From NCBI GenBank assembly GCA_021324115.1, contig JAJPJS010000004.1, positions 1-44,772 of the forward strand: DNA of 44,772 nt, read 5' to 3'. The position numbers and the translations under genes are program-made. The notes beneath the pieces are model-generated. The model did not search any database, was not told where the DNA came from, and was given only the letters and a program-made list of their open reading frames with translations. Shown here in pieces: positions 8,444 through 44,772 of this stretch; the first letter of the stretch is position 1, and each line of letters begins with the position of its first letter. This DNA is from Nitrososphaerota archaeon. Its GTDB lineage: Archaea > Thermoproteota > Nitrososphaeria > Conexivisphaerales > DTJL01.

Positions 8444-8482
8444 ACTTTAACTGATTCTAGGTCGTTAGATAAGTCTTATTTT

Positions 8483-15295: not shown

Positions 15296-16864
15296 TCAAA
15301 TGGAGTAAGCTGTGAACTCCCTCTCGTCGCCCACGAAGGGAGACATTGAAGATGGCAACCCAGGTATTGCCAGCCAGCCGTTGCTGATTGTCCCTCCAAC
15401 GTAAACCAGCTGGGTGACCGATGGTATGCCTATCCTCAGCTTTCCCTGTAATCTCTGACGAACCCTCTCGAGATAAATGTTGGCCATCTTCTCTGCCTCA
15501 AGTTTGGTGGAGAATGGCGGTAAGACCGGTGAAGAAGGCGGGATGCGAGTCTTGGACGAAACCAGCGAAGCATAGCCAATCCCTGTGGTGAGGGTCTTCT
15601 CCCTCCCCATGATTCTGTCAGAGAAGGTCGATTCTGACCGGACGGAGAATATGTCGGTGACTAGAGCCTGCGGCTGGCTCAAGATGTACTGAGGCTGCAT
15701 GGTGAATGTCGCAGGAATCAGTATGCGCTCCTGCACCGCCTGGCCCTTCTTCATGAACAGGGCACCTGTCTCGAAAGAGTAGCTTAGGTCGGCAAGCCAA
15801 CACGCGACCCAGATCCCTCCGGTGCCTAGTCCGTTGATGGTGGGGTTGCCTCCTTTGGCCAAGCTTACGTCGTGGAAGAATGTCGCTAACTCTCTGAAAG
15901 TCTCAGAGTCAAGGTATTCGCCAGAGGAGAGACTTACCCCGCCGTTCGCTCTCGCCTTCTCGAAGCCCTTGACGTAAGTCTCGAACTTCGCCAGCGATTC
16001 CATATGGTTCGGGGTGTACGACCTTGATGCCCTGACCGACTCCAGGACGAGCTTCATGGACATCACTATTCCTCTTTCCGCCTTGATCGCTGGATACCAT
16101 GAAGCGATCGAAGGCTGGCGCATTACTTCTCCTTGTGCTCCGGCCAGGAACTTTTCGGCCTCCTCCAGCTTTCGTTCGGCTCCAGCCATGTCTCCGTCGA
16201 TCAATAGCGCAGTCCCCTCGCTGAGGGAGGCAAGACCCCGCATTCTGTTCGCCGCCCCAGTCCTAGACTTGTCCACTTCCAATGTCGTCGCAGCACCTTC
16301 GAAGTTCTTCGCAATCGTGTGGTAGCTGCGTGGGCCGGGTTCGAGGTAGATCCTCATCACGTTCGATAGGTACCCGTATGTTTCTGTGGTCGCCACTGCC
16401 TCGTTAATGAAAGCACTCTGGTCCTCGGACTGCGCAAAGGTCGCCAATTCATGGAACCTCGCCGCTTGCCCAAGCGTTTCCCTCGGGTCGCCCGTCATTC
16501 CGTCAATCATTCCACGAAATGGTTTGGCAAATGGCGGAAGGAAGAGCGGACTGGCGCCGAGTTTCGCCAGTTGCATCGTGATTGAGTTGACCTTGCTGTT
16601 CACCTGTCCTCTGACGATCTGTTCGAAAATCTGGGCCCTTGCCACCGGGTCCACGTTGGCAACAGTCATTGACGCAGCGGGGACTATGGATTTGACCCAT
16701 CCGTAGATGTCGGCCCTCAGTTGTGTTATGTACCTCTCGATCTCGACTCTTTGTTGGGCTGTCCCGCAGTAGGAGCAATTGATTATCTCGGTGTCTCCCA
16801 AGGCAGGAAGCGGGGCCCCGCAGTGCGGACACCTCAACGATTGGTAGTTCTGCATCCCGCTCAT
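15296..16864 (-). CDS. Zinc-ribbon protein with long helical region
   Basis: The 522-residue product begins with a rubredoxin-like zinc ribbon: CPHCGAPL and CSYCGTAQ supply C12, C15, C30 and C33. Residues about 40-330 look mostly helical, with stretches such as LLIDGDMAGAERKLEEAEKF that resemble TPR-type repeats. The last 150 residues look beta-rich. No catalytic motif or membrane segment is evident. It follows the 329-residue gene directly and the stop and start of the two lie within one ATGAG tandem repeat. Both genes are clearly richer in G and C than their neighbours, which suggests a shared origin by transfer. Function unknown; an adaptor or scaffold is a guess. Confidence 0.75.
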   Translation of the reverse strand: MSGMQNYQSLRCPHCGAPLPALGDTEIINCSYCGTAQQRVEIERYITQLRADIYGWVKSIVPAASMTVANVDPVARAQIFEQIVRGQVNSKVNSITMQLAKLGASPLFLPPFAKPFRGMIDGMTGDPRETLGQAARFHELATFAQSEDQSAFINEAVATTETYGYLSNVMRIYLEPGPRSYHTIAKNFEGAATTLEVDKSRTGAANRMRGLASLSEGTALLIDGDMAGAERKLEEAEKFLAGAQGEVMRQPSIASWYPAIKAERGIVMSMKLVLESVRASRSYTPNHMESLAKFETYVKGFEKARANGGVSLSSGEYLDSETFRELATFFHDVSLAKGGNPTINGLGTGGIWVACWLADLSYSFETGALFMKKGQAVQERILIPATFTMQPQYILSQPQALVTDIFSVRSESTFSDRIMGREKTLTTGIGYASLVSSKTRIPPSSPVLPPFSTKLEAEKMANIYLERVRQRLQGKLRIGIPSVTQLVYVGGTISNGWLAIPGLPSSMSPFVGDEREFTAYSI

Positions 16865-16879
16865 CTCATCTCATCTCAT
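16860..16879 (-). repeat. Four tandem copies of ATGAG at the gene junction
   Basis: On the minus strand ATGAG is repeated four times. The TGA stop of the 329-residue gene lies in the first two units and the ATG start of the 522-residue gene lies in the last unit, 6 bases further on. Changing the copy number would change the spacing between stop and start but could not fuse the frames, since the stop is formed by the first two copies. Confidence 0.85.
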
Positions 16880-17860
16880 CGAATTCGCCCTGTAACTTAC
16901 CGAACGTATTTCGGATCTCAAGAGATTCAGCTCGGATTCGATTGCTACTATCCTGGCGTTAAGCCGTTGCTCCAAGACACGCATTTCTGCCATTGCCTTC
17001 TCGTAGTATTCACGGGCAACTTCATCTGCCACGTTCCTTATCGAAGAGGAGCAGCTCTCGCACGCCACCACCGCGTTCTCTTCCAGAGTATGAGGAGTCT
17101 CCGAACCATACCTAGAACGGGTATAGAGGCTGACCGTGGCCGGAAGGAGCACGTAATGGAAGTCCTGACCCTGCATCTCACGGCCGCAGAACCAGCATCT
17201 ACCGAACTTGCTAATGTTCTCCAGCTTGGAATGGACCCCGGAGACGATTCCCATTGGGTCGGCTCCGGCAAGCTCCAAGTTTGTTGCTGCCTCGGCGAGG
17301 AGCGATACGCTCTTCTTTGGGTCGGCATCGGCGATACTGTTTGCCTCGATTAGACTTGCCAGACCCAGCAAATAGTACGCGCGCCTCTGAGGGTCTATCT
17401 CCTTCTTTTGGAGCCTCCAGATTGCTAAGTCGCTTCCAATCAGGTCCATGTATTTCTGGGCCAGACTTCTGACCGCTTCGACCCGAGAGATATCCCTCGA
17501 TTCGCCGTTGAGCATGCTTGTGGTGGCAATATCGAAGGACAGCACAGAAGCCTGCTGCGCGAGGCTCGTGGAATCAGCAGCGAAGCCCACGTTGAGCTGG
17601 GTGTTGGGTATCTGGTTCAACGCCTCGCTGCAGCTCTGCCATGCCTGACCTGTCTGAGTTGTCAGAGCATGGAACAGGCTCGCCAGTGCATACGCCTGTG
17701 AGGCTTTCTGCGAATCTCCTATGCTGGCGTAGTGCTTGGACGCCTCGACAAAGTGATGGACGGCGTCTGGCCATTTCTGTGGACCAAGGTTGACACCCTT
17801 CTCGTAGGCCTCTCTAAATTCGATTTCAGCCTTCTCAGCGGGTTGCTTGAACAGCTTCAA
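16871..17860 (-). CDS. Helical-repeat protein with zinc ribbon and coiled coil
   Basis: The 329-residue protein has a helical N-terminal region (about 1-215) with TPR-like pairs, for example WPDAVHHFVEASKHYASIG and SQKASQAYALASLFHAL. A four-cysteine zinc site follows: C222 and C225 (CWFCGREM) with C267 and C270 (CESC). A heptad-like coiled coil runs from about 275 to 320. It pairs with the downstream zinc-ribbon gene in an operon. The start is TTG 17860, 9 bases after an in-frame stop. That TTG overlaps the stop of a possible 9-codon leader ORF. No enzyme motif is visible; a structural or assembly role is a guess. Confidence 0.73.
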   Translation of the reverse strand: MKLFKQPAEKAEIEFREAYEKGVNLGPQKWPDAVHHFVEASKHYASIGDSQKASQAYALASLFHALTTQTGQAWQSCSEALNQIPNTQLNVGFAADSTSLAQQASVLSFDIATTSMLNGESRDISRVEAVRSLAQKYMDLIGSDLAIWRLQKKEIDPQRRAYYLLGLASLIEANSIADADPKKSVSLLAEAATNLELAGADPMGIVSGVHSKLENISKFGRCWFCGREMQGQDFHYVLLPATVSLYTRSRYGSETPHTLEENAVVACESCSSSIRNVADEVAREYYEKAMAEMRVLEQRLNARIVAIESELNLLRSEIRSVSYRANSMR

Positions 17861-29698: not shown

Positions 29699-30601
29699 CT
29701 AATGCGAGGTTTCTTTGTTGTGGGCCTTTATCAAGCCCAAGGGCTGTGTACCTGTGCACTCTACAGTAAACCCAACACGTGAGAGCAAGCTTGGAAGATC
29801 TGCCGGTCCATCGTGATACTCCAAGATGATTTCACCAATCCTACTGAATGTTTCTTCCTTTGTATTTCTGAGAACAGAAAACTCACAACCCTCACAGTCC
29901 ATCTTAAGCAGGTCTATTCTGGGAAGGTCATATCTCTCTATCAGAGATTCTAGGGTGGTTGTTTCAACTTGGATCCTGTTACTTTGTGCAAAATCTATAA
30001 CTTTTGACAGACCCTCTGTTGGATTCAATGTGGACATGTTTGGCGACTCGTTAGGTATCAGAAATTCGGTGATGCCATTTGATGCAGATAATGCTGCATT
30101 GAGCAGAACTATCTTTTGCTGTAAGTCATTCATGCGTATATTCTCTTGAGCGAGTTGGTAGGATTCAGGGTCTGGCTCTAGCGCCAAAACCTTTAACGCG
30201 CCTCGAGTTGCAAAATATATTGCAGAATCTGAGTTTGATGCACCTACATCTATAACATATTCCCTTGATTCTAAGCCATAAATTTTGTCCTCAAATATCT
30301 CTTTTATATGCCCCAAGTCCCAGCCTTTTTTGTACCTACATTTTAAGTACACGTCTTTTTTCAAAATTATATAATCATTCATCTGTTCTACGATCTTCCA
30401 TCCATGATCCAGAAGAATGAGCAATTCGTAAAGCTTCCCTGGCTTTATTCTTAATATTGCCCCTGACTTTGACTTAAAGAAGACATAACCTTTTGTTCTT
30501 GCAATCATGGAAGCTAAAATCAACCTGAATGGACTCTTGGATTGCTTGAATAATAGCGATACGTAATTCAGCCCAAGTCGAACAAACTGTTTCAGATTCA
30601 A
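29699..30601 (-). CDS. FkbM-family methyltransferase
   Basis: The 300-residue protein has the SAM-binding motif YVIDVGASNSDSAIYFA near residue 118 and an acidic loop LALEPDPESY, followed by the FkbM signature LLKMDCEGCEFSVLRNT (about 225-241). FkbM proteins O-methylate sugars and polyketides and are frequent in surface-glycan clusters. The first 95 residues are an N-terminal extension of unknown role. TTG 30601 is the start. It lies 28 bases downstream of rfbA in the same direction, so it likely shares the transcript. Confidence 0.9.
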   Translation of the reverse strand: MNLKQFVRLGLNYVSLLFKQSKSPFRLILASMIARTKGYVFFKSKSGAILRIKPGKLYELLILLDHGWKIVEQMNDYIILKKDVYLKCRYKKGWDLGHIKEIFEDKIYGLESREYVIDVGASNSDSAIYFATRGALKVLALEPDPESYQLAQENIRMNDLQQKIVLLNAALSASNGITEFLIPNESPNMSTLNPTEGLSKVIDFAQSNRIQVETTTLESLIERYDLPRIDLLKMDCEGCEFSVLRNTKEETFSRIGEIILEYHDGPADLPSLLSRVGFTVECTGTQPLGLIKAHNKETSH

Positions 30602-30629
30602 ACTAAATCCCTACGAAAATTTTTTGTAT

Positions 30630-31697
30630 TCAAACTTCTACCTCTGAATAGTCGCTTATATGCAACTTTAGAGTCTTTCTTGCGGTTGAATTGTTTGATT
30701 TGATCTTTGCATTTCTTCCAACTAGGCTATCTTCCAGATTCAAAATTTCTTCTATCGATGTGTTGTCCATTATTATGCTGTATTCTATAGAGCTCTTTTT
30801 TATATTGCAGGAATCGCCTATGCTTGTATAGGGTCCTATGTGAGAATCTATTACCCTTGTATTTCTTCCGATTATTGCAGGACCCCTTACAGTGCTATTT
30901 TCTACAATTGTCCCTTCTGCTATACTTACCCTTCCTTCTATTCTTGAATTCAACGCCTTTCCATCTATCTTACTCTCTATCCTCTCGTCAAGGATTGTGG
31001 CGTTTAAAGCTAGAATATCATTCTTCTTTCCAGTATCAGCCCACCAGCCATCGACAAATGAATAGCCTACCTTATACCCATCATCTATCATCAGCTGTAT
31101 TGCATCTGTAATCTCTAACTCATTCCTCCGGCTTGGTTTCAACTTACCAACAATCTTAAAGAATGATGGGCTGAAGAAGTAGACACCAACTACAGCATAG
31201 TTGGATATGTGTTCCTTTGGCTTTTCGACAAGCTTTACTAGTTTACCATTGCCATCAAGCTTCGCAACGCCAAAGCGCTGAGGCTCATCGACCTCCTTCA
31301 GCAGTATCATCGAGTCCAGCCTCTCATTCGTAAATAATGATGCATATTTTGCAATACCATATTGAAAGATGTTATCGCCTAGGTAAACTACAAAGTCATC
31401 TTCACCAACAAATTCTTTGCAGAGGCTTACTGCATGGGCTATACCTAGAGCCTTACCCTGATTGATGTATGTTATTTTTACCCCAAACCTTGAACCATCA
31501 CCGTAGTATTCTCTTACAAGCTCGGGAAATGTTTCACCCAGTATTATAGCTATGTCTTTGATGCCCAATGATATAAGATCCTCAAGAACGTACTGGGATA
31601 CAGGTTTGTTCGCTATAGGTATAAGCTGCTTTGGACCTGCATATGTTAATGGCCTGAGCCTTGTCCCCTGGCCTCCGTGCAGTATTACGCCTTTCAA
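30630..31697 (-). CDS. rfbA: Glucose-1-phosphate thymidylyltransferase (long form)
   Basis: The 355-residue enzyme makes dTDP-glucose from dTTP and glucose 1-phosphate, the first step to dTDP-L-rhamnose. It starts MKGVILHGGQGTRLRPLTYAGPKQL..., a nucleotidyltransferase signature (residues 7-25), and has VVYLGDNIFQYG and EKPKEHISNYAVVGVYFF. Residues about 240-355 carry hexapeptide repeats (IEGRVSIAEGTIVENSTVRG), giving a left-handed beta-helix as in the long archaeal and actinobacterial RfbA forms. It is the last of four rhamnose genes. The start is TTG 31697; 29 bases separate it from rfbC. Confidence 0.95.
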   Translation of the reverse strand: MKGVILHGGQGTRLRPLTYAGPKQLIPIANKPVSQYVLEDLISLGIKDIAIILGETFPELVREYYGDGSRFGVKITYINQGKALGIAHAVSLCKEFVGEDDFVVYLGDNIFQYGIAKYASLFTNERLDSMILLKEVDEPQRFGVAKLDGNGKLVKLVEKPKEHISNYAVVGVYFFSPSFFKIVGKLKPSRRNELEITDAIQLMIDDGYKVGYSFVDGWWADTGKKNDILALNATILDERIESKIDGKALNSRIEGRVSIAEGTIVENSTVRGPAIIGRNTRVIDSHIGPYTSIGDSCNIKKSSIEYSIIMDNTSIEEILNLEDSLVGRNAKIKSNNSTARKTLKLHISDYSEVEV

Positions 31698-31726
31698 GCT
31701 ACATTTACCACTCTATCAACTATATC

Positions 31727-32296
31727 TTAAACATGCTTGAGAGGTGATTGATGATTATTCTTTAGCTCTCGAAGGGTAGGCCATTTTTTATCCTTTTCTG
31801 AAAGCAGAGGATTATCGATAGGCCATCTGATTCCAAGCTCTGGATCATTCCATATTATTCCCCCTTCATGGCTTGGTGCATATGAATTGTCAACCGCGTA
31901 TTCCACCTCAACCAGGTCGCTCAGAGCAAGGAAGCCATGAGCAAAGCCCCTCGGCACATAAAGCATGTACCTGTTTGATTCTGATAGATTGATTGAATAG
32001 TATTTTCCATAGGTCTTTGACCCTGCCCTTATATCTACAGCCACATCAAGTATCTCTCCTCTTAAACATCGAACAAGCTTCGCCTGCTCGTGAGGATTGC
32101 GTTGAAAATGCAAACCTCTAAGCACTCCCTTTGAAGATCTGCTGTGATTTATCTGAATTATATCCATCTTGATTCTTGCTTCTTCAAAGTCCTTTTTTGT
32201 AAATGTCTCCATGAAGAAACCTCTTTCATCTCCAAACAGCCTGGGCTTGACAATAAACAATCCATTCAGCGTAGTCTTCTCAAATGCAAAAGGCAT
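31727..32296 (-). CDS. rfbC: dTDP-4-dehydrorhamnose 3,5-epimerase
   Basis: The 189-residue cupin-fold enzyme epimerises C3 and C5 of dTDP-4-keto-6-deoxyglucose. Family markers are RLFGDERGFFMETF, the catalytic histidine in VLRGLHFQ, KLVRCLRGEILDVAVDIR, YVPRGFAHGFLALSD and the C-terminal GGIIWNDPELGIRWP. Length is typical (180-190). ATG 32296 lies 4 bases after rfbD, so the genes are coupled. Confidence 0.96.
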   Translation of the reverse strand: MPFAFEKTTLNGLFIVKPRLFGDERGFFMETFTKKDFEEARIKMDIIQINHSRSSKGVLRGLHFQRNPHEQAKLVRCLRGEILDVAVDIRAGSKTYGKYYSINLSESNRYMLYVPRGFAHGFLALSDLVEVEYAVDNSYAPSHEGGIIWNDPELGIRWPIDNPLLSEKDKKWPTLRELKNNHQSPLKHV

Positions 32297-32300
32297 AATC

Positions 32301-33191
32301 TTACCCTCTCTTCGGAGTGTTTAGTTCTTCTTTCAACCTGTATAATGAATCTTTAATTGATGCAGGTTTTCTCATAAGAATACTGCTTGCTTTTGTCACA
32401 TCAAGTGAGCTGTCCCTTGGCCTAGGGGCATACCAGTTCATTTTGCTCATGTCGACTGGATTGATAAGGGAGGGATTCAAAGACCATGTCTTGCAAATTT
32501 CAAGTGCAAATTCAAGCCTGCTCACCCTACTTGCACCTGAAAGATGCAAAATGCCTTTAACTCTTCTTTCAAGGCATTCCATTATCATCTCTGCTAGGTT
32601 TGTATTAAGCGTTGGAGAAACAAACTGGTTCATAGCAACATTTACTGTTTTGCCTGAGCTCAATGAATCTAGAAGCCATAGTGCAAAGTTAACTTTTCCC
32701 GAAGAAGGAGTGGACCCATAGATAACGCTTGTCCTTGCTATAAGATAATCTGATAGAAGCTCCTTGATAGACTGCTCTCCCATTAGCTTGGTATGGCCGT
32801 AGAAATTTATTGGTCTTGGGATATCTTCTTCGTTGTACATTCCCTTTTCTCCATCGAATACATAATCAGTGCTGATATAGACAAGGAATGCTCCCAAGTC
32901 TTTGGCTGACTTTGCGATTGTTGTTGTTGCGTCATAGTTAATTGCTTTAGCTAGGGTATGATCCCTTTCACATCTATCTACATCTGTTAGAGCAGTTGTA
33001 TGGACGATTGCATCTGGCTTTATCTTTCTCAGTATCTCCGTAACCTGATTCTTATCCCTTAAGTCTAGACGAACCGGAATCCCTGTTGATGGGGCATGTT
33101 CATTGTAAAGAGAATAGACTTCGTGCCCTTTTACCATTGCCAAAAGAGCCGAACCAAGAAGACCTCCTGCGCCTGTAATTACTAACTTCAA
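32301..33191 (-). CDS. rfbD: dTDP-4-dehydrorhamnose reductase
   Basis: The 296-residue short-chain dehydrogenase reduces the 4-keto group in the last step to dTDP-L-rhamnose. It has VITGAGGLLGSAL (dinucleotide loop), DAIVHTTALTDVDRCE, YISTDYVFDGEKG and the catalytic Y-x-x-x-K in FYGHTKLMGE. TTG 33191 starts 6 bases after rfbB. The order of motifs and the length agree with RfbD. Confidence 0.95.
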   Translation of the reverse strand: MKLVITGAGGLLGSALLAMVKGHEVYSLYNEHAPSTGIPVRLDLRDKNQVTEILRKIKPDAIVHTTALTDVDRCERDHTLAKAINYDATTTIAKSAKDLGAFLVYISTDYVFDGEKGMYNEEDIPRPINFYGHTKLMGEQSIKELLSDYLIARTSVIYGSTPSSGKVNFALWLLDSLSSGKTVNVAMNQFVSPTLNTNLAEMIMECLERRVKGILHLSGASRVSRLEFALEICKTWSLNPSLINPVDMSKMNWYAPRPRDSSLDVTKASSILMRKPASIKDSLYRLKEELNTPKRG

Positions 33192-33197
33192 TCCAGC

Positions 33198-34208
33198 TTA
33201 CCACCTCGTCTTCCAAGGAGTCGGGTGAAGAATCTTTTCATCAGCAAGAGGTTTCCACCATCTTTCATTATTTACATACCAGTTCACAGTCTTAGATAAT
33301 GCCTTATGGAACGTATGCTTTGGCCTCCATCCTAGCTGATTCCTTATCTTCGAACTATCGAGGCTGTACCTGAGGTCGTGCCCGGGTCTGTCTTCGACAT
33401 ATTCGATAAGCGTAGTTGGCTTATTCATAAGTTTCAAGATTGTAGAAACTACCTCTATGTTTTCAAGTTCATTGCCGGAGCTGATGTTATATATTTCTCC
33501 AGCCTTGCCTTTATTTAGCACGGTTTCTATGGCCTCGCAATGGTCCTCTACATATATCCAATCTCTGACATTCTTACCTTTACCATAAAGAGGGATCTTT
33601 AACCCTAGCTTTGCTCTGATTATCGTTTTTGGTATCAGTTTTTCAGGAAACTGATAAGGTCCAAAGTTATTTGTGCATCTTGTGATTATTGTATCAAGGC
33701 CATAAGTTCTATGATAAGCATGTATAAGCATGCTCGCGGCAGCCTTTGATGCTGCATAGGGAGATGATGGGTTGAGTTCATCATCTTCCGTGAAAGAGCC
33801 TGATGAGATGTCGCCATACTCTTCATCCGTGCCAACATGAACCAGTCTTACATTATTTCTAGCTTTCCTCATAGCTTCGAGAATAGAATAAACGCCCAAA
33901 ATGTTTGCTTTGATGAACTTTTTAGGGCTTGATATACTTCTATCGACGTGAGTTTCGGCAGCGAAGTTTACTATTGCATCTACCTGACCTACGATTCTCC
34001 CGATGGTTTTTTCATTCGAGACATCAGCTTTGATAAATGTGTAGTCAGAAGCTTCTGCTAGATCTCTAAGATTTTCCTGATTAGAACCATAGGATAAACT
34101 GTCCAAATTAATGATTTTGGAATCTTTGTTTTTAACGAAGCGTCTGATAAAGTTGCTACCTATGAAGCCTATGCCTCCCGTTACCAGAATGTTCACTTTG
34201 GGTATCAC
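33198..34208 (-). CDS. rfbB: dTDP-glucose 4,6-dehydratase
   Basis: The 336-residue enzyme makes dTDP-4-keto-6-deoxyglucose. NILVTGGIGFIGSNFIRRF binds NAD, VNFAAETHVDRSI is the RfbB signature, VHVGTDEEYGDI contains the T-D-E triad residues and YAASKAAASMLI supplies the catalytic Tyr and Lys. EDRPGHDLRYSLD near the end is also typical. GTG 34208 or the GTG four codons later starts the gene. It is first in the B-D-C-A operon, downstream of the epimerase pseudogene. Confidence 0.96.
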   Translation of the reverse strand: MIPKVNILVTGGIGFIGSNFIRRFVKNKDSKIINLDSLSYGSNQENLRDLAEASDYTFIKADVSNEKTIGRIVGQVDAIVNFAAETHVDRSISSPKKFIKANILGVYSILEAMRKARNNVRLVHVGTDEEYGDISSGSFTEDDELNPSSPYAASKAAASMLIHAYHRTYGLDTIITRCTNNFGPYQFPEKLIPKTIIRAKLGLKIPLYGKGKNVRDWIYVEDHCEAIETVLNKGKAGEIYNISSGNELENIEVVSTILKLMNKPTTLIEYVEDRPGHDLRYSLDSSKIRNQLGWRPKHTFHKALSKTVNWYVNNERWWKPLADEKILHPTPWKTRW

Positions 34209-34248
34209 ATAATACCCATTATCTTCTGCCTTTAAATTTATGGCATGG

Positions 34249-34599
34249 TTATCCTATTGATCGCACCAATATAGCTTTCCACACGAATTTTTTGATGACC
34301 TTGCAATCTTTAATCTACCCTTTATAGTTCATCTCTAGCGTCTTGTTGAGATCAAGTTCACCTGATGGGTCATTGGAAAATGATACAAGGTCAAGGACTT
34401 CGTCGGTACCATAAATGATAGAGCGATCAAAGGTCCTTATGTCATCCTTTATCGATTTCGCTCTGTCAGCAACGGTAGAAAGAATATCTTTGCCGAAAAA
34501 GAACCTGTCCAGGCATATAAGATTATAACCTGCTGATACGAGCTTCTCTGCCAGAACAGAGCCGATATATCCTCCTGCACCGGTCAGTAAAACCTTCAT
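34249..34599 (-). pseudogene. Truncated NAD-dependent sugar epimerase/dehydratase
   Basis: The first 94 codons encode the start of an extended SDR enzyme: MKVLLTGAGGYIGSVLAEKL with the G-x-x-G-x-x-G loop, then LVSFSNDPSGELD and TLEMNYKG, at which a TAG stops the frame (34315). In the same frame after the stop, KVIKKFVWKAILVRSIG still resembles the next family segment (K-x-x-V-x-R-x-I-x-x-S-S), with an end at 34249. The other 200 or so residues, including the catalytic Tyr-Lys motif, are missing. It is therefore a dead gene between the broken methyltransferase and rfbB. Confidence 0.8.
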
Positions 34600-34744
34600 T
34601 TTTTCAGACTAAAGGTTATGATTATGCTGTATTTAACCTAGCAGCGAGGAACAAGGAAAAAGTAAGTTGATGGTGAAAAATGGAAACTTTCTTTTGTAAC
34701 GTGCTTGGGAAGAAGTATAATGCACGTTTCTCCATATGGTGAGG

Positions 34745-35417
34745 TTATGCCAAAATTCTGAAAATTCGATCAATAAGAAAGTGGTAAATTTTGGATAATA
34801 ATCCAAATACCAAGAGTCTAGTCCTACGATGAAGTGGCATGTCTTCTGGGTTCGGTGCGGTAAGGGTTCTCCTCCCCAGAATGATTGAGTACAATGCAAT
34901 ATCGCGAAAATTAACCCTTTTCTGATTCAAAATCTTCTTTGCTATTAGAAACACCTCGGGTCCGGGGACCTTCTTCAGACTGATTATTTCAAAGTCAGCA
35001 AAAATATGCTTCATATCCTCTGGCTCGTACCTCCAGTAGTCATAAGGGTATGCGTGAAAAGGAAATCCCTTTGAGCATGTTGTGATATATATATCCACCG
35101 GGCTTTAAAACATCTTTCATATTGCTGATTACTTTTCTCCAGTCCCTTACATGCTCCAGCATCTCTGTAGAAATGACGACATCAAATGAATCTGGACCAA
35201 AGTGATCTACAAGTCTTTCTGCTGGTAATACCACATCAACCCCTTTGCCTGGCTGAATGTCTACGCCAATATATTCAGCAGGGTAGCAGAATCTTTCGAT
35301 TATAGGTCTTACGCTACCGTTGACATAGGCTGAGCCTATTTCCAGCACTTTTTTGCCTCTGAAGTGCTCTACTTTGGCCTCATTCAGAAAGAATTCGATT
35401 ACGGTCACATGACACAT
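34745..35417 (-). pseudogene. SAM-dependent methyltransferase split by a frameshift in an AT repeat
   Basis: The first frame (35417 down to 35040) has VLEIGSAYVNGSVRPIIERF, IGVDIQPGKGVDVV, FDVVISTEMLEHVRDW and VLKPGGYIY, a class I methyltransferase. The second frame (from about 35098 down to 34745) carries on exactly where the first breaks: ITTCSKGFPFHAYPYDYWRY and PEDMKHIFADFEI. The switch lies in a run of five AT units at 35085-35094; one more AT unit would restore a single protein of about 225 residues. Either the gene is dead, or the tract varies in length and switches the gene, or the base call is wrong. It probably methylates a sugar. Confidence 0.85.
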
Positions 35418-35531
35418 ATCAAGAACCTGCTAAGGCAACGCTAAAAGACTATACGGAATTATCAACTGGCCTGCATATAGCTATTTGGGGAAGTACGCTA
35501 CCGCGTGATAGGGATGTGATGCAGTGAACTT

Positions 35532-36527
35532 CTACCCAAATTGGCGGAATGGTGCCCCGAGCTTGGAACCCAGAATCCAGATCAGTTTTCTTTGGTAGTA
35601 CTTCTTCAATTCGGGGTCTCTCGTCATGAGCAAGTAACCAAGCATCTCAATCTGACGGAAAATTACTTCGTATAACAGCAGAGAGACAACAAGACGAAGC
35701 TTACTCTTTCCATATTTAAAAAAGAGTGCAAATTTCGGGTCAGTTCCCGAAATTCCTGTATTTATTTTACTGTAGTCTCTACGTCTCGTCTTTGAAACTT
35801 TATGATACACGCGGGCTGCTGAAGAATAAACTATTCGGAAGCCTGCGCTCTTCGCTCGAACACAAATATCATAGTCTTCCCCGCCCTGCGGGAAGTTTGT
35901 CTCGTCCAATAGGCCGACTTTTGTGAGAACTTCAGAACTAATCAGCATAGCACAACCCGAGACCCAATCCCGATCAGAAATGTTGTCATATATCGGTGAG
36001 TCTCTACGATTTAATCCCTCGTCGCGTATATAACCTATGGGCCAATATATCCTGCCGCCCACCGAGTTGAGGAGACTTTTGCTGTAATAGTAGTAAATTT
36101 TTGCACCAACGATTCCAACCCCACGCACTCTGGCAGCAGAGACCATCTTGTCAATGATATCTGGCTCTACAATAGTGTCATTATTTAATAATAATACATA
36201 CTTTGCCCCAAGTTTCAAGGCCGTCCTGATCTGTATGTTCGATGCCTTCGCGAATCCGAGGTTTGATTTACTTTGGATGCAAAGTGGTCTGCATTGATGA
36301 GTTCGTATTGTCTCAAGCTCGTCCCGCTCGGAGCCGTTGTCCAAAACAATGACTTCGGTGTTGGGGTAGATTTGGTCTTTGAGCGAGTCCAAGCATTCTA
36401 AGGTGTCTGCTAGCCCATTGTAATTGATTATGAGCACTGCTACTAGCGGATATACCTGGTCATTTCCCACAATTGAACCTGCCAGTTGAAGAGAGGGATT
36501 CTTCCTCACGTCTACTGATACAATCAC
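35532..36527 (-). CDS. GT2-family glycosyltransferase
   Basis: A GT-A-fold family 2 transferase: VAVLIINYNGLADTLECLDSL at the start, VIVLDNGSERDELE, the D-x-D-type motif LLLNNDTIVEPD, and GEDYDICVRAKSAGF with the E-D catalytic pair. GTG 36527, 5 bases after the preceding gene, was preferred to a start at 36620 that overlaps that gene by 89 bases with no family sequence. The predicted length is 331 residues. The C-terminal 60 residues include a hydrophobic LRLVVSLLLYEVIFRQI that may rest on the membrane. NNDT-type GT2 proteins often transfer rhamnose, in agreement with the rfb genes. Confidence 0.9.
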   Translation of the reverse strand: MIVSVDVRKNPSLQLAGSIVGNDQVYPLVAVLIINYNGLADTLECLDSLKDQIYPNTEVIVLDNGSERDELETIRTHQCRPLCIQSKSNLGFAKASNIQIRTALKLGAKYVLLLNNDTIVEPDIIDKMVSAARVRGVGIVGAKIYYYYSKSLLNSVGGRIYWPIGYIRDEGLNRRDSPIYDNISDRDWVSGCAMLISSEVLTKVGLLDETNFPQGGEDYDICVRAKSAGFRIVYSSAARVYHKVSKTRRRDYSKINTGISGTDPKFALFFKYGKSKLRLVVSLLLYEVIFRQIEMLGYLLMTRDPELKKYYQRKLIWILGSKLGAPFRQFG

Positions 36528-36531
36528 AGCG

Positions 36532-37380
36532 TTATCTGTCCGAGTCAAGTGGATCTGTGTGGTGTCTTGACTTCGAGGCAATAGTCCACAGGTGGAACGG
36601 GGGGCAAGAGCCTCTGGCAAGCACTTCGTAGCCAGTGTATCCTAGGGCACGTTCGAGCAGAGTGTGATTGAACACATGATGATGCATAGCCCTATACACG
36701 TAATTATTTTTACACCGTAGTTCAAACTGTACACGGTTTCCAGCGTCAGGGTCTAGGGTCAGGTCATGTAAAGCCAATACTTCCTGAAGATGCGTTATGT
36801 CATCCTCTAGCGTATTGTTGGAGTAATCATCGACCAGATGTCGAAAACTGGTTACTGATCTTCGATGGTCGAATGTAAATTTTTTGTCTGGAACAACCAA
36901 TATCAGCGAACCCCTTTCCTTTAAAACCCGATTCCACGCGAAGAGCGCTTTCAGAGGATTCGCTATGTGTTCTAACACGTGTGAAGACGCAACGAAGTCA
37001 TATTTCCTGTCTGGGATACGATGGAGGGTGGTCGCATCAGAAACGATGTGACTGGAGTATAAGCCTTGAAGCTCATTAGGTGTGAAACTTCTGTTCCAGA
37101 TCGTTTTGCTTGCGTAGTCAACATTATCGATTCTCCCTGCGAGCGCGTATATCGGAAGTGGTGCGTTAATGCGAAAGATGCCACTGGGTCCACCAATCTC
37201 TAGCCCGTATTTCCCACGGATATGTGGGATGATACTCCGAAAAGACTCCAGGGGCTTTCCTGCCAACCTGTTTTCAACTACAAATTTCAAGAATTGCGTA
37301 AAACCATATTCCCTAGTCCAATACAGTGTTCTCTTAAGAGGTATTATTCTTGTGAATTTTGTCACGAAATTATTTCCCAA
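36532..37380 (-). CDS. SAM-dependent methyltransferase of the glycan cluster
   Basis: The 282-residue protein has a class I methyltransferase core: YGLEIGGPSGIFRI near residue 58, VSDATTLHRIPDRKYDFVASSHVLEH near 112-138, NRVLKERGSLILVVPDK. The C-terminal part contains HHHVFNHTLLERALGYTGY. A variant first motif (E-I-G-G-P-S-G) is typical of the group found beside glycosyltransferases. The TTG start at 37380 is 22 bases after the GT2 gene; a later in-frame GTG is an alternative. It stays intact while three others in the cluster are broken. Confidence 0.85.
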   Translation of the reverse strand: MGNNFVTKFTRIIPLKRTLYWTREYGFTQFLKFVVENRLAGKPLESFRSIIPHIRGKYGLEIGGPSGIFRINAPLPIYALAGRIDNVDYASKTIWNRSFTPNELQGLYSSHIVSDATTLHRIPDRKYDFVASSHVLEHIANPLKALFAWNRVLKERGSLILVVPDKKFTFDHRRSVTSFRHLVDDYSNNTLEDDITHLQEVLALHDLTLDPDAGNRVQFELRCKNNYVYRAMHHHVFNHTLLERALGYTGYEVLARGSCPPFHLWTIASKSRHHTDPLDSDR

Positions 37381-37402
37381 CTACTCAGCGACAACACGCT
37401 TA

Positions 37403-38353
37403 TCAGGTTGTATCTTCGGCAATGTGATAGCCGGCGGGAAACTGTTCCAGCTTAAAACCAAGTCGAAGAGCCTTTACAGCCGCAGTCAACCCTTCAGCTA
37501 AGACTAGGGGCATGAACCAACGTACAGTTGCATACAGGAGTCTAACAAGGGAGATTTTCCCTTCGCGAAACAATATCCTGGCATTTCTTACAATAAGGTA
37601 GTACCTGAAACTGGGCTCGTATAGTACTTCCAGTTTGCCGAGATGCTTAATCATTCCAAGTGAATGGCTTGCAAGAACTGCATTTAGCTGCAACACCCTG
37701 AATCCCGCTTCTTTGACCTTGGTGCAAAAATCATAATCTACCCAATCTAGGAAAAATTCTTCTCTGAAACTGATTGTCATCGCCACTATTGACTTGATCA
37801 TGCTCCCGCTTATGATTATGAATGTGGGTTCCATCAGACGAAGTGTACCCTTTTTTCGAATCGTCAAACTATCAAGAAATAGCAGAGATATCAGTTTCGA
37901 AAAAGTACCATTCAACTTGGTTTCGCGGTTTAAAGCACCCATGACACCCACATTGCTAGGATTCCCTGCAAACCTCAACTTGCTGAGTAATGTAAATGCA
38001 TAGTGGGGCGACAGGACTGTGTCTTGGTCTAGCAGAAGGATCCAATCAGGTGAGAATCTCTGCATCGCTAAGGCTTTGCCAAGGTTCAAAGCAGCCGCCA
38101 AACCCAAGTTCATTGTGTTCCGAACAACAACTACCTTTCCGCGTTCATCGATTAGGCGAACGGATTTTAGGATATCCAAGTAATTGGAAGAATTGTTATC
38201 TATGATTATGACCCGATGACATTGAGCTAGTGCACTGCGGAGCGCTTGGTTAAATCGTTTTGGATCGGGATTGTAGGTGACCAATAGGCATACAACCACT
38301 TCCTTGTCCTTGTACTTAATCAGTTGGTCCGTGTCTATCATCCCAAGGCTCAT
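37403..38353 (-). CDS. GT2-family glycosyltransferase, rhamnosyltransferase-like
   Basis: The 316-residue protein has VVVCLLVTYNPDPKRFNQAL, VIIIDNNSSN, NLGLAAALNLG and the LLLDQDTVLSPHYA motif, which is typical of rhamnosyltransferases of the RfbF/WbbL type; DWVDYDFCTKVKEAGFRV holds the catalytic acidic pair. The C-terminal portion has two hydrophobic stretches. The presence of a complete dTDP-rhamnose operon 3 kb away supports dTDP-L-rhamnose as donor. It begins the run of glycan genes from ATG 38353. Confidence 0.9.
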   Translation of the reverse strand: MSLGMIDTDQLIKYKDKEVVVCLLVTYNPDPKRFNQALRSALAQCHRVIIIDNNSSNYLDILKSVRLIDERGKVVVVRNTMNLGLAAALNLGKALAMQRFSPDWILLLDQDTVLSPHYAFTLLSKLRFAGNPSNVGVMGALNRETKLNGTFSKLISLLFLDSLTIRKKGTLRLMEPTFIIISGSMIKSIVAMTISFREEFFLDWVDYDFCTKVKEAGFRVLQLNAVLASHSLGMIKHLGKLEVLYEPSFRYYLIVRNARILFREGKISLVRLLYATVRWFMPLVLAEGLTAAVKALRLGFKLEQFPAGYHIAEDTT

Positions 38354-38806
38354 GGATGCACATCATCCCCCCAAAGCAGCGATGGCATAATCTCAAATGC
38401 ATGCAGTTTCCTCAATCATGGTGTCAAAAAAACTCCGGAGGTATAGTCTCGCCGAAAAAGAACCGCAAGACCCTTTTACGAGGTCTTGGCTCCATCTCAT
38501 ATTTTTAGTAGTGACTTGCCAAACATTCAGGTTTTTCTTGAAGAAGAGTGGGGATAGTTTGCCTTAATGACGATGCAGTCACAGCGTTTTCTATCATTTC
38601 TACCATTCCTCCACTGTAGTTCTCAGTTGCTTCGAGATGTTCGAGACCCGGACTTTGTCTGGCGCGGGGGGTAGCAATTCAGCACAAAAAAATTCGTATA
38701 GCAGAGAAATATAGAAAATGTTCGTGTGCACTAGTCTAAATTGTTTTTGAGACAGCTGCCTTAAGAATATCCGTACTCGACAACCCGAAATCAACTTTGA
38801 TGGTAT
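38354..38806. other. Intergenic stretch, no gene
   Basis: About 450 bases between the GT2 gene and the broken methyltransferase. The longest frame (38600-38794, minus, 64 codons) shows no motif. It may contain the promoter of the GT2 gene. Confidence 0.45.
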
Positions 38807-39530
38807 TTATGCCTTCAGAAGCCGTTTTAGAATCGGTTTCAACGTCCTTCTAGCTTGAGGCAGAACTATCTTCATTATCAAATCTGCCACCATGGCATAG
38901 TCAACATAAACATCCTGGGTGCACCACCTTTAGAACATGGTTCAGTCGAGGACTCGGTAACGTCGATAGATGCTTTTCGTCAACGTATCAAACGGGATTT
39001 TGTCTGTATCTAGGCTCTATCCTCTGGTTGTCCCAGATCTCCCAACGGATATAATCCCACTGATACAAGCCGTGATCCCTAAACAACTCTTCGCAGTATG
39101 TTGGCCATCTTTCATTCACATGTTGCGTACCTCCTTGGAATGGGATGGCCACGGAAAACACTTTACAAGGCTCCAAATTTGGTAGCGACCTAACAAAAAC
39201 TTGAGGGTACTTGTAAGGTATGTGCTCGATAACTTCTAAACAAATAGCAACGTCAAATTTTCTTCCGACGCAAAGAGGTGCAGTAAGGTCATGAGGAAGA
39301 AAGGGCAACCCTTTGATGTATTCAGTTACCCAAGGTCCATCTATTCCTAATACATCCTGCACGCCCATTTTCATGGCTACTTTCAGAAAGCTACCTATAC
39401 CGCAACCCACATCCACAACGCTCTTTGGCGCAAAGTATTTGATGATAAGTGGCATTATCTCTTCTGCTGAAGCCATCGTAACTGAAACAGAGTTTTCGTA
39501 GAATCTTTTGCTATAACTCATCCTCCTCAT
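38807..39530 (-). pseudogene. SAM-dependent methyltransferase with a stop and a frameshift
   Basis: The first 180 codons have VVDVGCGIGSFLKVAMKMG, VLGIDGPWV, FDVAICLEVIEH and the tail WDNQRIEPRYRQNPV, at which a TGA (38988-38990) stops the frame. The family continues with Y-V or Y-I and here the same frame goes on as YVDEKHLSTL and LKVVHP after the stop. Near 38914-38918 an extra base puts the rest in another frame: DVYVDYAMVADLIMKIVLPQ and KRLLKA, ending at 38807. With those two repairs the protein would be about 240 residues. The presence of two lesions favours real decay over a single read error. Confidence 0.8.
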
Positions 39531-39578
39531 CGCCTAACACCAACTGGGACATGCACTTATATCACACAGAACAGTAAA

Positions 39579-40820
39579 TTAAAGCGCATCCAACCCACCC
39601 TGATTATCGAACAATGCCTTCATTAGCTCGTCAGCAAAAGTTCTTGTCGAAAACCGAGAGACAGCCCATTCTCTCGCGTTGGCCCCCATCTTGTCGCATT
39701 CCTCAGGGTGACTATAGAGAAACTCAAGCTTTTCGGCCAAAGTTACTGGATCTTCAACTGGAATCAGGAAACCGGTTACACCGTCTTTTATCATTTCGAC
39801 CATGCCTCCGCTACGGGTGCCGATTACCGGCGTGCCGCACATCTGTGCCTCTATGACTGAAAAGGGAAATGCGTCCTGGGTGGAGGGAAGCACGTATACG
39901 TTTGCTCGAGAATACGCGTCGATCAGCTCATTGATAGGTATATGCCCCATGAACTTATAATGTGCGGTAAGGCTGTGTTCGTATATATAATGCAAAACGC
40001 GCTTGTAATAGCCGGTCGTTCCATTGATTCCGAATCCACCAACAGGGCCGATTACCGTGAAAATTACGTTGCACACCCCTAGTCGGTTCACAAGAATATT
40101 CGAAGCCTCAGCTAGGATATGCAGACCCTTTTGTGGTACAATGCGTCCCACATAAAGCACATTGAATACGGCAGTAGACTTTGGGACCGTAGGGCGGAAA
40201 AGGTTAGGGTCAACTCTAGCATGCTGCACCACCACTAAGTTTGAGCTCGGAATCCCACAGCGGACCATGTCTCTTTTGTTGGTTTCACTTTGGGCAATCA
40301 CCTTGACGCGACCTAGAACCCACCTTCCTAGGTATGCGTATCTTAATTTAATGACTTTGGATGCTCTGCTTTTGGCGACCAGTATCCACTCTCCTCCAAG
40401 CTCGGTATAGATCATCTTCTTCCTAAGGCTGGGGAAGAAGATGGAAAGAAACACAAACCAGAAATGATACGTGTGAATTCGGTTTGCGCGTGCGAATGCA
40501 CCTCTGAACCTGATCAGGCTAATGAGTGAAAAAAATAAGGAATCAACATTCAGCAAAACAGAAGGTGCCAAGTCGCCGAACAGCCTGTATGACAATGCTC
40601 TTGCAAATTTGCTATTTGAAATCCTTGGTATCGCAACCCGCATTTCGAGGCAGCCGTTCTTACCATGACTTACTGTGATCTCATTCTTTCCGGTGTTGAT
40701 GATTAAAACATTGACACTCTGACACATGCTGAGCCAAGCATTCATAAAGACTCGAGCAGACCCCTCATTAACTGTATCTCCATCGAGTCCCCATACGCTA
40801 ACAATAAATTTTCTGCTCAT
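39579..40820 (-). CDS. GT4-family glycosyltransferase
   Basis: The protein has two Rossmann-like halves. The N-terminal half includes FIVSVWGLDG and EGSARVFMNAW; the C-terminal half has NVLYVGRIVPQKGLHILAEA, VYVLPSTQDAFPFSVIEAQM (the E-x7-E region) and CGTPVIGTRSGGMVEMI with GVTGFLIPVEDP. It would add a sugar from a nucleotide donor, retaining configuration, on the cytoplasmic face. ATG 40820 is chosen over a TTG five codons upstream. The product is about 413 residues. Confidence 0.92.
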   Translation of the reverse strand: MSRKFIVSVWGLDGDTVNEGSARVFMNAWLSMCQSVNVLIINTGKNEITVSHGKNGCLEMRVAIPRISNSKFARALSYRLFGDLAPSVLLNVDSLFFSLISLIRFRGAFARANRIHTYHFWFVFLSIFFPSLRKKMIYTELGGEWILVAKSRASKVIKLRYAYLGRWVLGRVKVIAQSETNKRDMVRCGIPSSNLVVVQHARVDPNLFRPTVPKSTAVFNVLYVGRIVPQKGLHILAEASNILVNRLGVCNVIFTVIGPVGGFGINGTTGYYKRVLHYIYEHSLTAHYKFMGHIPINELIDAYSRANVYVLPSTQDAFPFSVIEAQMCGTPVIGTRSGGMVEMIKDGVTGFLIPVEDPVTLAEKLEFLYSHPEECDKMGANAREWAVSRFSTRTFADELMKALFDNQGGLDAL

Positions 40821-40855
40821 GGGCACAACTTGCAAATATCATCTTAGTGCTACTG

Positions 40856-42511
40856 TCAAAATGCCGGAGGTAGAAGATAGCTCTTTCCGTCATCAAACAC
40901 CAAGTCATGCTGATATATTACTGATATCTGAATCGGATATCCATATAGGTGCTGCTGATAATAGGAATACTCTGGATAAATTATATTATATGAAGAATCT
41001 GAATAGGGAAAGCTCAACATGGGTTCTTGGTAATAATTGAAGTTTGTTTCCGGATGCATGCTTCCAATTATTCCGGCGGTTTTGGGGTCGGTCGACAATA
41101 CCAAGTTACCTAATTGGTACTTCAAAAAATAACTGGCTGAGGCGATCTCTTCAGGATACACAGCAATCGTTGAAATCTGATGGTAGGTGAGTGCGAACAT
41201 CGAGGGAGCACACAAGGTTATGGCGATTACCGTTATCGAGGCAACTAGTACTTTATTCTTGGAGAAAGCGTAGAGTAAGAACGGAATGCTGAAGAACACG
41301 ACGAACTGCGGAGCAATCAAGAGGTCAAACCCCCCACCCGAGCCCAGGCTAGCCAGTAGCGCCGTGAGTCCAAACGCCACGACGCCGATAGAACCAACTG
41401 ATAAGATGGCAGCCGCTGTGTGCTGCCGTATCCACTTCCTACGCTTTAGGACTATGAATCCCAATGCCAGCAAAGATCCCATGATGGAGGTCAGCACTAT
41501 GTCGAAATAGTCCATGGTTGCGACCCATGCAGGGACGCCCAGCGTGTTCGCAGAAGCCACTTTGAAAGCGTATCCGAATGCGTTCCCGGAGAGGATACTT
41601 AGAAACGCATTATAAACTCCCGGGACTAGGCTGCCAAAGTAGTTCATGGCGAAATATGTGAAATACGCCACGTATATAGTGAAAAAAACTAGCAGATAAT
41701 AACTGAGATTAGTGTAAACACGCCCGAAGAACATTGGCAGTGTCATGGCAGCTATTATAAAAACGGCGTCGAGTGGATCGTAGAAATGACTTATCGTCAT
41801 CCCGGCAAAAAGCACTGCCGCGGGAACAAGGCTTCTTCGTCCAAAGGGTGGCTTGACTAAGAGAAGGAAAGACGAAAAAAGAGTTACTCCCAGTGCAGCA
41901 GGAAAGAAGAGTGTGAGGTTCCCAGCCTCTAGAGAGAATGCGAAAAAGAGTGGAATAGACAGCGCGGTTACTGTGTTCTGCTTTACCACCCTGCTTGTGA
42001 TTTCATAAACAACTGAACCGGTGACAAGATAAAAAGAGGTTTGCAAAAAAGATGCCGAAAGCTGGTAACTTACGCCCAATATTTTCGCAAATGGATAGGT
42101 CAGCAACGATATCCCGGGGTACTCTAGGTAGCCAACGTTCGCTGGCAGAGGTTGCGAGAAGTGATGGAAGATGGCCAAGTAAGCTGTATCGGTTAAGGTA
42201 ATACCATATTCATGATCAACACCAAAGGGTTCCATCTTATATGTAAGTAAACCAAAGAGGAGAGATGTGGTCAGTACGTAGAAGGCAATTACTCCCCTTT
42301 TTTCCCTGTTCAAATGGGCCAAAAGAACAAAGGATGCGACAAATACAGAAAACAGTATCGAGAAAGCGACAGGCTGTTGGATTATTTCCAGCGGATCGAC
42401 TTGTGAGAACCCTTGGAAGAATTTGAAAGGATACATCAAGATCATTAGAAGACATGCCCAATAGACACCTGCAGGAATGGTACCTGCAAATTTATTCAGA
42501 ATCCAAGTCAC
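40856..42511 (-). CDS. Large polytopic membrane protein, perhaps GT-C-type or glycan-handling
   Basis: The 551-residue product has about 11-13 hydrophobic segments spread over residues 10-440 and a hydrophilic C-terminal 110 residues (NLVLSTDPKTAGIIGSMHPE...). The acidic loop after the third segment, EPFGVDHEYGITLTDTAYL, resembles the first extracytoplasmic loop of GT-C glycosyltransferases that use lipid-linked sugars. PANVGYLEYPGISLLTYPFAKILG follows. No other family feature can be named. The position between glycosyltransferase genes suggests a role in lipid-linked glycan assembly or transfer. GTG 42511 is the start, 35 bases before the next gene. Confidence 0.65.
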   Translation of the reverse strand: MTWILNKFAGTIPAGVYWACLLMILMYPFKFFQGFSQVDPLEIIQQPVAFSILFSVFVASFVLLAHLNREKRGVIAFYVLTTSLLFGLLTYKMEPFGVDHEYGITLTDTAYLAIFHHFSQPLPANVGYLEYPGISLLTYPFAKILGVSYQLSASFLQTSFYLVTGSVVYEITSRVVKQNTVTALSIPLFFAFSLEAGNLTLFFPAALGVTLFSSFLLLVKPPFGRRSLVPAAVLFAGMTISHFYDPLDAVFIIAAMTLPMFFGRVYTNLSYYLLVFFTIYVAYFTYFAMNYFGSLVPGVYNAFLSILSGNAFGYAFKVASANTLGVPAWVATMDYFDIVLTSIMGSLLALGFIVLKRRKWIRQHTAAAILSVGSIGVVAFGLTALLASLGSGGGFDLLIAPQFVVFFSIPFLLYAFSKNKVLVASITVIAITLCAPSMFALTYHQISTIAVYPEEIASASYFLKYQLGNLVLSTDPKTAGIIGSMHPETNFNYYQEPMLSFPYSDSSYNIIYPEYSYYQQHLYGYPIQISVIYQHDLVFDDGKSYLLPPAF

Positions 42512-42917
42512 CCATCTATAATACTAGGCTTAGACATAAGCATAGACCCTTCTAAACATCGCTGTTAAATTTCGAATGGAAGGAGGCATCTGAGACGAAC
42601 CTTTTACTCATATACTTTTACTTTCTTTTCACTGTTGGGCATTGTCCTGAGAGTCCTTATTAGCTTAGATGGGAATCTTCGCGCTCGGACCAAACTTGTT
42701 GCGAACTTGCTTATAGATTAAAAACGCTTTTTCCCTCGGCTCTCTTGGCATGCCTCCAAAGGTCTAAGAACAGAGTGGGGCTGCGCAGTGCTCTGATTGA
42801 TAGCTTGCATGTTCGGATAACAAAAATTGCTAAACGGTTTGCTCTCATTGCTTAAGATTTGTGACCGGAAGAGGGTCTTGACCACTTGCGTGAACCTCAG
42901 AAGCCCCAGAACGATGC
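42512..42917. other. Intergenic stretch, no gene
   Basis: About 400 bases between the large membrane protein and the broken methyltransferase. Stops are frequent and no motif is seen. It may hold the promoter of the downstream (minus strand) genes, since TAGTATTATAGAT lies just before GTG 42511. Confidence 0.45.
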
Positions 42918-43694
42918 TTATTTTGAAGAGTTGGACTTGATAGCGATGATCAAGATGGCGTCACAGTTTTCGGAGCTTATCTGTTCTAAGGCAATCGTCG
43001 CAATATGATAATTCAGTGGTGGTGCTAGTTTCTTGACAAGTTTCTTCGACTTGATGTACATCAGGTACTGTAGGTAGCCCCTTTTTGATATTGCATTAAT
43101 CGCTTTCGTAGTTTTGCCTGCTGAACGAGCTAAGTCGATTACTAGGCATGAATTGTCTGAATACTCGGGCTATAATGAAGCCGGTAGCATGCAATATTTC
43201 CCGGAGTTCTTTAGGGGAATACCCGTATATACGGAATTTGGATGCGTCTTTGATTATGAAACTATCTCCCCCGGCAATTAGCCCGTTTGGGGTACTCAAA
43301 CAGAGTATACCGCCAGTCCTAAGAATTCTGTTTGCTTCAGCTAGGTATAGTGATGGGTTCTGGACATGCTCAGTTACATTGGAAGAAACAACAGCGTCAA
43401 ATACTTCTCAGCGTAGCCCGTATTATAGGGTTTGTGATATATAAATCTGAAGTTCGAAGTTCCGAACCTGTCTTTGAGTCTGTTAGCGTAGTTAATTCCT
43501 TGGCAGTCAATATCAAAACCAATAACAGTGCAATTCTTTGATAGATAGAAAGTTGTAAAGCCATACCCAAAACCGTAGTCGGCAATAAGATTCCCTTTCA
43601 GTTGGGTGCGAAAGAACCTGATGCGAGATACGTCGTAGTCAAAATTCACTTCGTACATTTCTCGGAGAATAGTAAGATTCGTCAGAATGGGCAC
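42918..43694 (-). pseudogene. SAM-dependent methyltransferase with two frameshifts
   Basis: Three pieces in different frames join into one protein. Piece one (43694-43400) has IADYGFGYGFTTFYLSKNC and VIGFDIDCQG. After a missing T near 43399-43401, piece two reads DAVVSSNVTEHVQNPSLYL and RILRTGGILCLSTPNG, down to FRQFMPSN near 43140. Piece three, in another frame, reads VIDLARSAGKTTKAINAISK and ends near 42918. The core motifs and the post-core C-terminal tail are both present, so the gene was complete before decay. About 258 residues would result. As with the other two, single-base indels are the only lesions. Confidence 0.8.
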
Positions 43695-44003
43695 CGAGGC
43701 TATCTCGGGATTTCTACACTTCCGCCTGCTACTCCGTCAGCTACCATATTCAAACAAGGCCAAGTGCTACTAGCCAACATGTAAATTGCTTGCAGCCGAA
43801 TCCTCACGGAGTTCCGGGGACCTTGAATGATGCCAGTTTTGGTTCCAGACATCCTGATCCCGACTCTTGCAGCCCCCAAAGTTTTGAAAAACTTAATGCC
43901 AATAATCAATACAATATGGGTTCTGCTTATACTCATACGGAAGCACAGAAGATAACGTGGAGCTGATTTGTGACATTTGTGATGAGTCTTTAGAAATCCG
44001 AAG
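43695..44003. other. Intergenic stretch, no recognised gene
   Basis: About 310 bases between the GT4 gene and the broken methyltransferase. A minus frame of 105 codons (43700-44017) is open but overlaps the end of the GT4 gene and shows no family motif. Confidence 0.4.
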
Positions 44004-44772
44004 TCAAGTGGTAGCAAACTTGTTTGTCATTTTCCTACATATCTCCTTCATACGATTCGCCCATAGTTCGGGTGTAAAGTGTTCTTCGATGATTGCACGG
44101 TTCCTTCGACCCATCATTTCGCGCCTCTCAGGGGCTGTCTCTATGAATTCAATGATTGCTTTCTCCAAAGCAGAGCGGTCTCCAATCGGTACAACCTTAC
44201 CTCCAAAGTTCAAGCGTTCGAGCTCCCTAAAGTATCCGGTAGCGGTGATGATCAGCGGTCTTTTGCAGGCCATAGCCTCCAACACCACGTTAGCGGCAGT
44301 TTCAAAGAACGATGCATGGACAAACAAATCACATGCTGCATATAGTTGGACAAGTTGTTCAAGTGGAACTTCACTAACCAAGATCACATTACGTGCATAC
44401 CTGCTCGAAAGGAGTTGCTCTAGAACACTCCTTGACGCTTTATCAGTACTATAATCATCATTCTTGCCCAGCAAGAGGAAATAAGTATTTGGGTACCGTT
44501 CGATGATTTTCGGCACAGTACTTAATATCAAGGGAGCACCCTTCCACCTTGTCATAGAACCGGGAACTGCAAATATCAAGAATGCGTCGTCTGATACGCC
44601 TATTTTTTGCCTAATGGAAGACTCTTGCCATTTGAACGAATCTTTGTCAACACCAATAGGAATCAAAGAAACCTTGCCCATAGCACGAAATCTTTTTATC
44701 ACTTGACTGTAAGATTGCATTGCTGAAGCTGATTCGAATACTATACCATCACTCTGAAGAAGTTGGAATGAT
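44004..44772 (-). CDS. GT4-family glycosyltransferase, C-terminal part (cut by window edge)
   Basis: The frame is open from the right edge; an internal ATG at 44720 is not the true start, since the upstream frame reads SDGIVFESASAM and is consistent with the family. The visible part contains VSLIPIGVDKDSF, LIFAVPGSMTRWKGAPLIL, the donor-site segment LYAACDLFVHASFFETAANV and VVLEAMACKRPLIITATGYF. The end NRAIIEEHFTPELWANRMKEI is typical of GT4. The N-terminal half lies outside. It belongs to the same minus-strand glycan cluster. Confidence 0.88.
   Translation of the reverse strand, partial: SFQLLQSDGIVFESASAMQSYSQVIKRFRAMGKVSLIPIGVDKDSFKWQESSIRQKIGVSDDAFLIFAVPGSMTRWKGAPLILSTVPKIIERYPNTYFLLLGKNDDYSTDKASRSVLEQLLSSRYARNVILVSEVPLEQLVQLYAACDLFVHASFFETAANVVLEAMACKRPLIITATGYFRELERLNFGGKVVPIGDRSALEKAIIEFIETAPERREMMGRRNRAIIEEHFTPELWANRMKEICRKMTNKFATT

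Follow-up and report, generated by a model that had tools for sequence, protein, structure and literature searches.

A putative phase-variable methyltransferase gene in a mosaic rml-type glycan cluster of an archaeon

It is well established that bacteria switch surface-sugar genes through repeats, which is one of their main routes of surface variation against phages and hosts. In a 2025 review of phase variation, archaea appear only as a topic for future work (PMC11868660), and our own literature search, for which most subscription papers were out of reach, found no archaeal repeat-driven phase variation. Criteria by which families of phase-variable genes can be recognized are given by the GeneTack survey of conserved frame-transition clusters (PMC3711429). 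Here we analyze 44,772 nucleotides of a Nitrososphaerota archaeon (assembly GCA_021324115.1, contig JAJPJS010000004.1, positions 1 to 44,772; hereafter the window). Like archaeal dTDP-L-rhamnose (rmlBDCA) clusters, the window conserves all four rml genes together with glycosyltransferases, FkbM and methyltransferases, and in contrast to them it adds a conserved truncated epimerase gene and several lineage-specific pseudogenes. We consider it rather probable that this is a mosaic rml-type cluster losing genes of all classes by lineage, in which one methyltransferase gene, MT1, is a putative phase-variable (contingency) gene.

The genes of the cluster described here lie on the reverse strand, as does the ATPase gene at 13328–14832. 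RmlA (an RmlA-type sugar nucleotidyltransferase, 30630–31697), RmlC (31727–32296), RmlD (32301–33191) and RmlB (33198–34208) were identified with Pfam and are encoded together, as in an rml (dTDP-rhamnose) cluster; all four genes are intact, as are those for an FkbM-type methyltransferase (29699–30601), a family-2 glycosyltransferase (35532–36620) and a family-4 glycosyltransferase (39579–40835). The SAM methyltransferase gene MT4 (36532–37380) and a second family-2 glycosyltransferase gene (37403–38353) are intact here and frameshifted in the related genome G062, and another family-4 glycosyltransferase gene (44004–44771) is cut by the contig end. Between the sugar-transfer genes lies an intact gene for a 551-aa protein of unknown family (40856–42511), which has no match in Pfam or NCBIfam and of which an N-terminal piece occurs truncated in genome G001. 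Pfam also confirmed methyltransferase and epimerase domains in the broken pieces of the cluster, and an HMM of coding potential, trained on the core genes, did not recognize the atypical glycan genes. Elsewhere in the window, two genes at 55% GC (15296–17860) stand within a stretch of 40–45% GC and were likely inserted from another source.

Scanning genome contigs for RmlA led to two metagenome-assembled archaea, FK5.bin12 (L045, G061) and YP4.bin50 (L046, G062), in which RmlA is 89% identical. FK5.bin12 matches the window at 29699–35192 with 82.6% DNA identity and YP4.bin50 matches it at 35584–44771 with 78–84%; the left end of the window, by contrast, finds its match in the host's own family. 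The core DNA of G061 and G062 hardly matches the host genome, G000, in the one 20-kb stretch compared, and the 16S of the two shares only 79.5% identity with that of the closest sampled relative of the host, the host assembly itself having no 16S. A cluster this similar in genomes with distant cores has therefore been transferred laterally across deep lineages, or else the contig is chimeric or misbinned. Relative to G062, dS is approximately 0.33–0.39 to the right of 38.8 kb and 0.60–0.66 to the left, a step that points to a mosaic with its junction at a family-4 glycosyltransferase remnant (38511–38615; 35 aa, 51% identical to the intact enzyme at 39579–40835). The best explanation for the window is a mosaic surface-glycan cluster of the rml type that circulates horizontally and from which all gene classes are lost lineage by lineage. 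Two side observations concern the relatives: in FK5.bin12, an ORF close to the rml cluster contains a perfect array of 15.5 copies of the 6-base unit GGGAGT (L045, 7430–7522), encoding a Gly-Ser run, and G062 carries glycosyltransferase and epimerase modules twice (L080, 9659–18190), one copy decayed and one intact.

The initial annotation of the cluster had described three methyltransferase genes (34745–35417, 38807–39530 and 42918–43694) and an epimerase gene (34249–34599) as broken, and our analysis agrees, finding no intact frame in any of them. Assembly error is unlikely as a general cause of the breaks: none of approximately 45 matched core genes is frameshifted in the stretches sampled from this genome, and the lesions in the relatives' assemblies differ from those in the window. 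The further claim, that decorating enzymes had been broken selectively in an otherwise intact cluster, does not hold, given that the window also contains the glycosyltransferase remnant and a broken gene for a defence-type AAA_15 ATPase (13328–14832), and that the broken genes in this or homologous loci include those for glycosyltransferases, an oxidoreductase and an ATPase. Comparison with relatives, which the annotation had proposed as a check, likewise goes against it: G062 has MT3 intact and MT2, MT4, two family-2 glycosyltransferases, two epimerases and a Gfo/Idh-type oxidoreductase (assigned by inspection of its translation) split or frameshifted. Of the decorating or epimerase genes in the window, 4 of 6 are broken, compared with 1 of 10 others (P = 0.04), but the difference is P = 0.24 for methyltransferases alone against the rest, and P = 0.08 for methyltransferases against glycosyltransferases in the window and G062 combined. 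Hence, there is a weak and non-exclusive excess of broken decorating genes, and phage- or host-driven selective loss of decorating enzymes, which this excess would favor, is very unlikely in view of the glycosyltransferases and oxidoreductase broken in G062, its intact MT3, and the remnant and ATPase gene broken in the window.

Most of the broken genes are products of ordinary decay. MT2, a SAM methyltransferase pseudogene (38807–39530), has a stop codon at 38988–38990 and a 1-base insertion approximately 75 bases further on. In MT3, also a SAM methyltransferase pseudogene (42918–43694), the frame switches near 43400 and near 43100, the latter at a 53-base deletion relative to the intact copy in G062. 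Both thus carry several unrelated inactivating lesions, and a repeat origin was rejected because none of these lies on a repeat. With dN/dS near 0.3 relative to G062, MT2 and MT3 have broken recently, having worked through most of the period since divergence. The glycosyltransferase remnant and the ATPase gene, which is frameshifted and C-terminally reduced compared with a 626-aa intact homologue in YP4.bin50 (L046), are decay products of the same ordinary kind. Loss of methyl decorations, one cause put forward in the annotation, fits MT2 and MT3 as ordinary decay and is unsupported as selective loss. A further ATPase-like ORF of 168 aa near the contig end (1–628) has repeated partial matches in G001 and is possibly part of a broken multicopy family.

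The epimerase gene has a different history. What remains of this NAD-dependent epimerase/dehydratase is an N-terminal piece (34315–34599) comprising codons 1–94, or approximately 30% of a protein of 326–340 aa, and it ends at an identical codon in both the window and FK5.bin12 (L045, 605–889), two lineages that share the deletion of everything downstream and are separated by a dS of approximately 0.9. Over the 94 codons dN/dS is 0.14, the changes are distributed 9, 14 and 40 over the three codon positions (P = 1e-8), and the piece keeps a normal identity to full-length homologues. The gene was shortened before the window and its relative diverged and has apparently stayed under strong purifying selection, possibly as a retained short NAD-binding protein.

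MT1 (34745–35417) encodes a class I SAM-dependent methyltransferase by its Methyltransf_23/11 Pfam domain, has intact homologues (L148–L154) and matches no NCBIfam equivalog above its cut-off. In the window it consists of two overlapping frames that change over at an (AT)5 tract (35085–35094) in the codons of a GGYIYITT motif, the only place where the frame is broken. This tract is the sole dinucleotide run of at least 5 units in the cluster, from which long homopolymers are absent. Relative to FK5.bin12, dN/dS is 0.05–0.33 on both sides of the tract, and with a single lesion at the tract, neither scattered lesions nor lost conservation, MT1 does not look like an ordinary pseudogene. In FK5.bin12 itself (L045) the tract is interrupted and in frame, and a separate 1-base lesion lies further along the gene. 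No relative of MT1 was found in the viral contigs searched. An invertible switch was considered and is unsupported, since the cluster contains no inverted repeats and no direct repeats of consequence.

A search of several hundred genomes found members of the MT1 family in 12, and we compared the tract among 12 well-preserved members from deep-branching archaea, which are copies from different species or paralogues and not strains. Six of the 12, the window included, have an uninterrupted AT tract; five of these are out of frame and one, in G130, is in frame, so that both kinds of allele occur at one site among relatives. The frame offsets at the tract are −2 bases in the window, −4 in G343, −2 in G246, −4 in G176 and +2 in the second copy of G155, each a whole number of AT units. 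The remaining six copies are intact, with an interrupted tract that is in frame, showing that the tract is not fixed across the family. Both states meet in G155 (L175), where of two paralogues approximately 7 kb apart (8106–8822 and 15059–15750) one has an interrupted tract and is intact, and the other has an uninterrupted tract and is out of frame. Codon usage predicts an uninterrupted tract in 0.35 of 10 copies, whereas six have one, a comparison that treats the copies as independent and is weakened by shared descent. The tracts measure 9–14 bp, which makes them the longest or joint-longest coding AT tracts in the samples of G155, G246 and G000, but they are short in absolute terms and compared with many bacterial contingency loci. 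Beyond the family, G246 has a candidate second switch, an in-frame (TA)6 (L176, 12516–12527) in a glycosyltransferase-like gene that lies 3 kb from its split MT1.

Sequencing or assembly error at repeats is another conceivable source of such breaks, given that many of the compared sequences are metagenome assemblies and one YP4.bin50 contig has low coverage. However, the break occurs at the same site in five unrelated assemblies, one of them a single-contig genome of 2.15 Mb, and the core genes of G000 show no excess of frameshifts. The other coding AT tracts of at least 9 bp in G246, G155 and G000 are also in frame throughout (0 of 19 break the frame), compared with five of six uninterrupted MT1 tracts out of frame (Fisher P = 1e-4). 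We therefore regard error as highly improbable.

The out-of-frame copies are otherwise intact. None of the five has a second frame break or a stop anywhere in the gene, and per half they keep 86–99% of the residues that are invariant in intact copies, the window having the weakest C-terminal conservation of the copies compared (86%); intact copies, left out one by one, keep 88–100%. On the gene tree the out-of-frame copies are scattered and not grouped, so the breaks in separate lineages look independent. These observations bear on the possibility that MT1 is dispensable and the AT run a mutational hotspot, with slippage as the commonest first inactivating lesion and a loss that is effectively permanent and followed by decay. 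Genes neighboring MT1 do decay, most intact copies have interrupted tracts, and two copies with an interrupted tract are broken elsewhere in the gene (L045 and copy 2 of G390), so MT1 can be lost outright. However, with no second lesion and little reduced conservation, permanent loss would need five very recent losses, and the AT tracts of other genes have not gone out of frame, which leaves this explanation unlikely. The retained coding constraint on both sides of the tract fits another alternative, in which the genes are not off and the out-of-frame copies are expressed because RNA polymerase slips, or ribosomes shift frame, along the AU run; as all offsets are even, slippage by dinucleotide units could restore every frame. 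The offsets vary among copies, so that no one programmed ribosomal shift fits all (a single shift of conserved direction and size was rejected on this ground), and G130 retains an in-frame tract of the same kind. We consider expression by such slippage distinctly improbable.

Phase switching by repeat slippage is, with moderate confidence, the best reading of the MT1 sequences, and of the causes proposed in the initial annotation it survives for MT1 only, the one gene with a sole lesion, at an AT tract that is out of frame elsewhere by whole units. The codons for GG-Y-I-Y-I form the uninterrupted AT run; strand slippage in replication would gain or lose AT units and shift the frame, and the shift would turn the full-length methyltransferase off or on. 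Slippage by whole AT units would explain the site, size and independence of the breaks, and its reversibility could account for five lineages being out of frame at once and yet undecayed. The rate of switching may be low because the tracts are short. Split or intact MT1 adjoins rml genes in G343, G176, G130 and G076, and with G246 and G390 included its neighbors are rml genes, FkbM or an intact epimerase gene, so its target is probably a surface sugar, the methylation of which would be altered by switching. Reversibility within populations, a surface-sugar target and selection for switching are what we infer from this pattern. Whether the whole glycan-linked methyltransferase family is a true contingency locus throughout these deep archaeal lineages, switched by the AT run at the GGYIYITT motif, is in our judgement finely balanced. 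If so, archaea would have bacterial-style phase variation of surface sugars, and a recurrent switch at one site would show how the coat met by viruses and neighbors varies. Genes of this type are easily misannotated as pseudogenes and discarded, and a switch at one site is directly testable from raw reads.

With the clusters of the GeneTack survey (PMC3711429), the MT1 family shares a frame break found repeatedly, in several lineages, close to a slippery AT stretch, which is one of the criteria of that paper for phase variation; the MT1 break differs in lying on a dinucleotide repeat with offsets that differ among copies. With the bacterial SSR contingency loci in surface-glycan and methyltransferase genes, for example of Campylobacter, Neisseria and Haemophilus, it shares a short repeat within the reading frame, changes of repeat units that break or restore that frame, a gene that is otherwise intact and a sugar-coat context. 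In contrast to those loci, MT1 is archaeal, and its putative switch is a dinucleotide AT run of only 9–14 bp encoded by a conserved methyltransferase motif.
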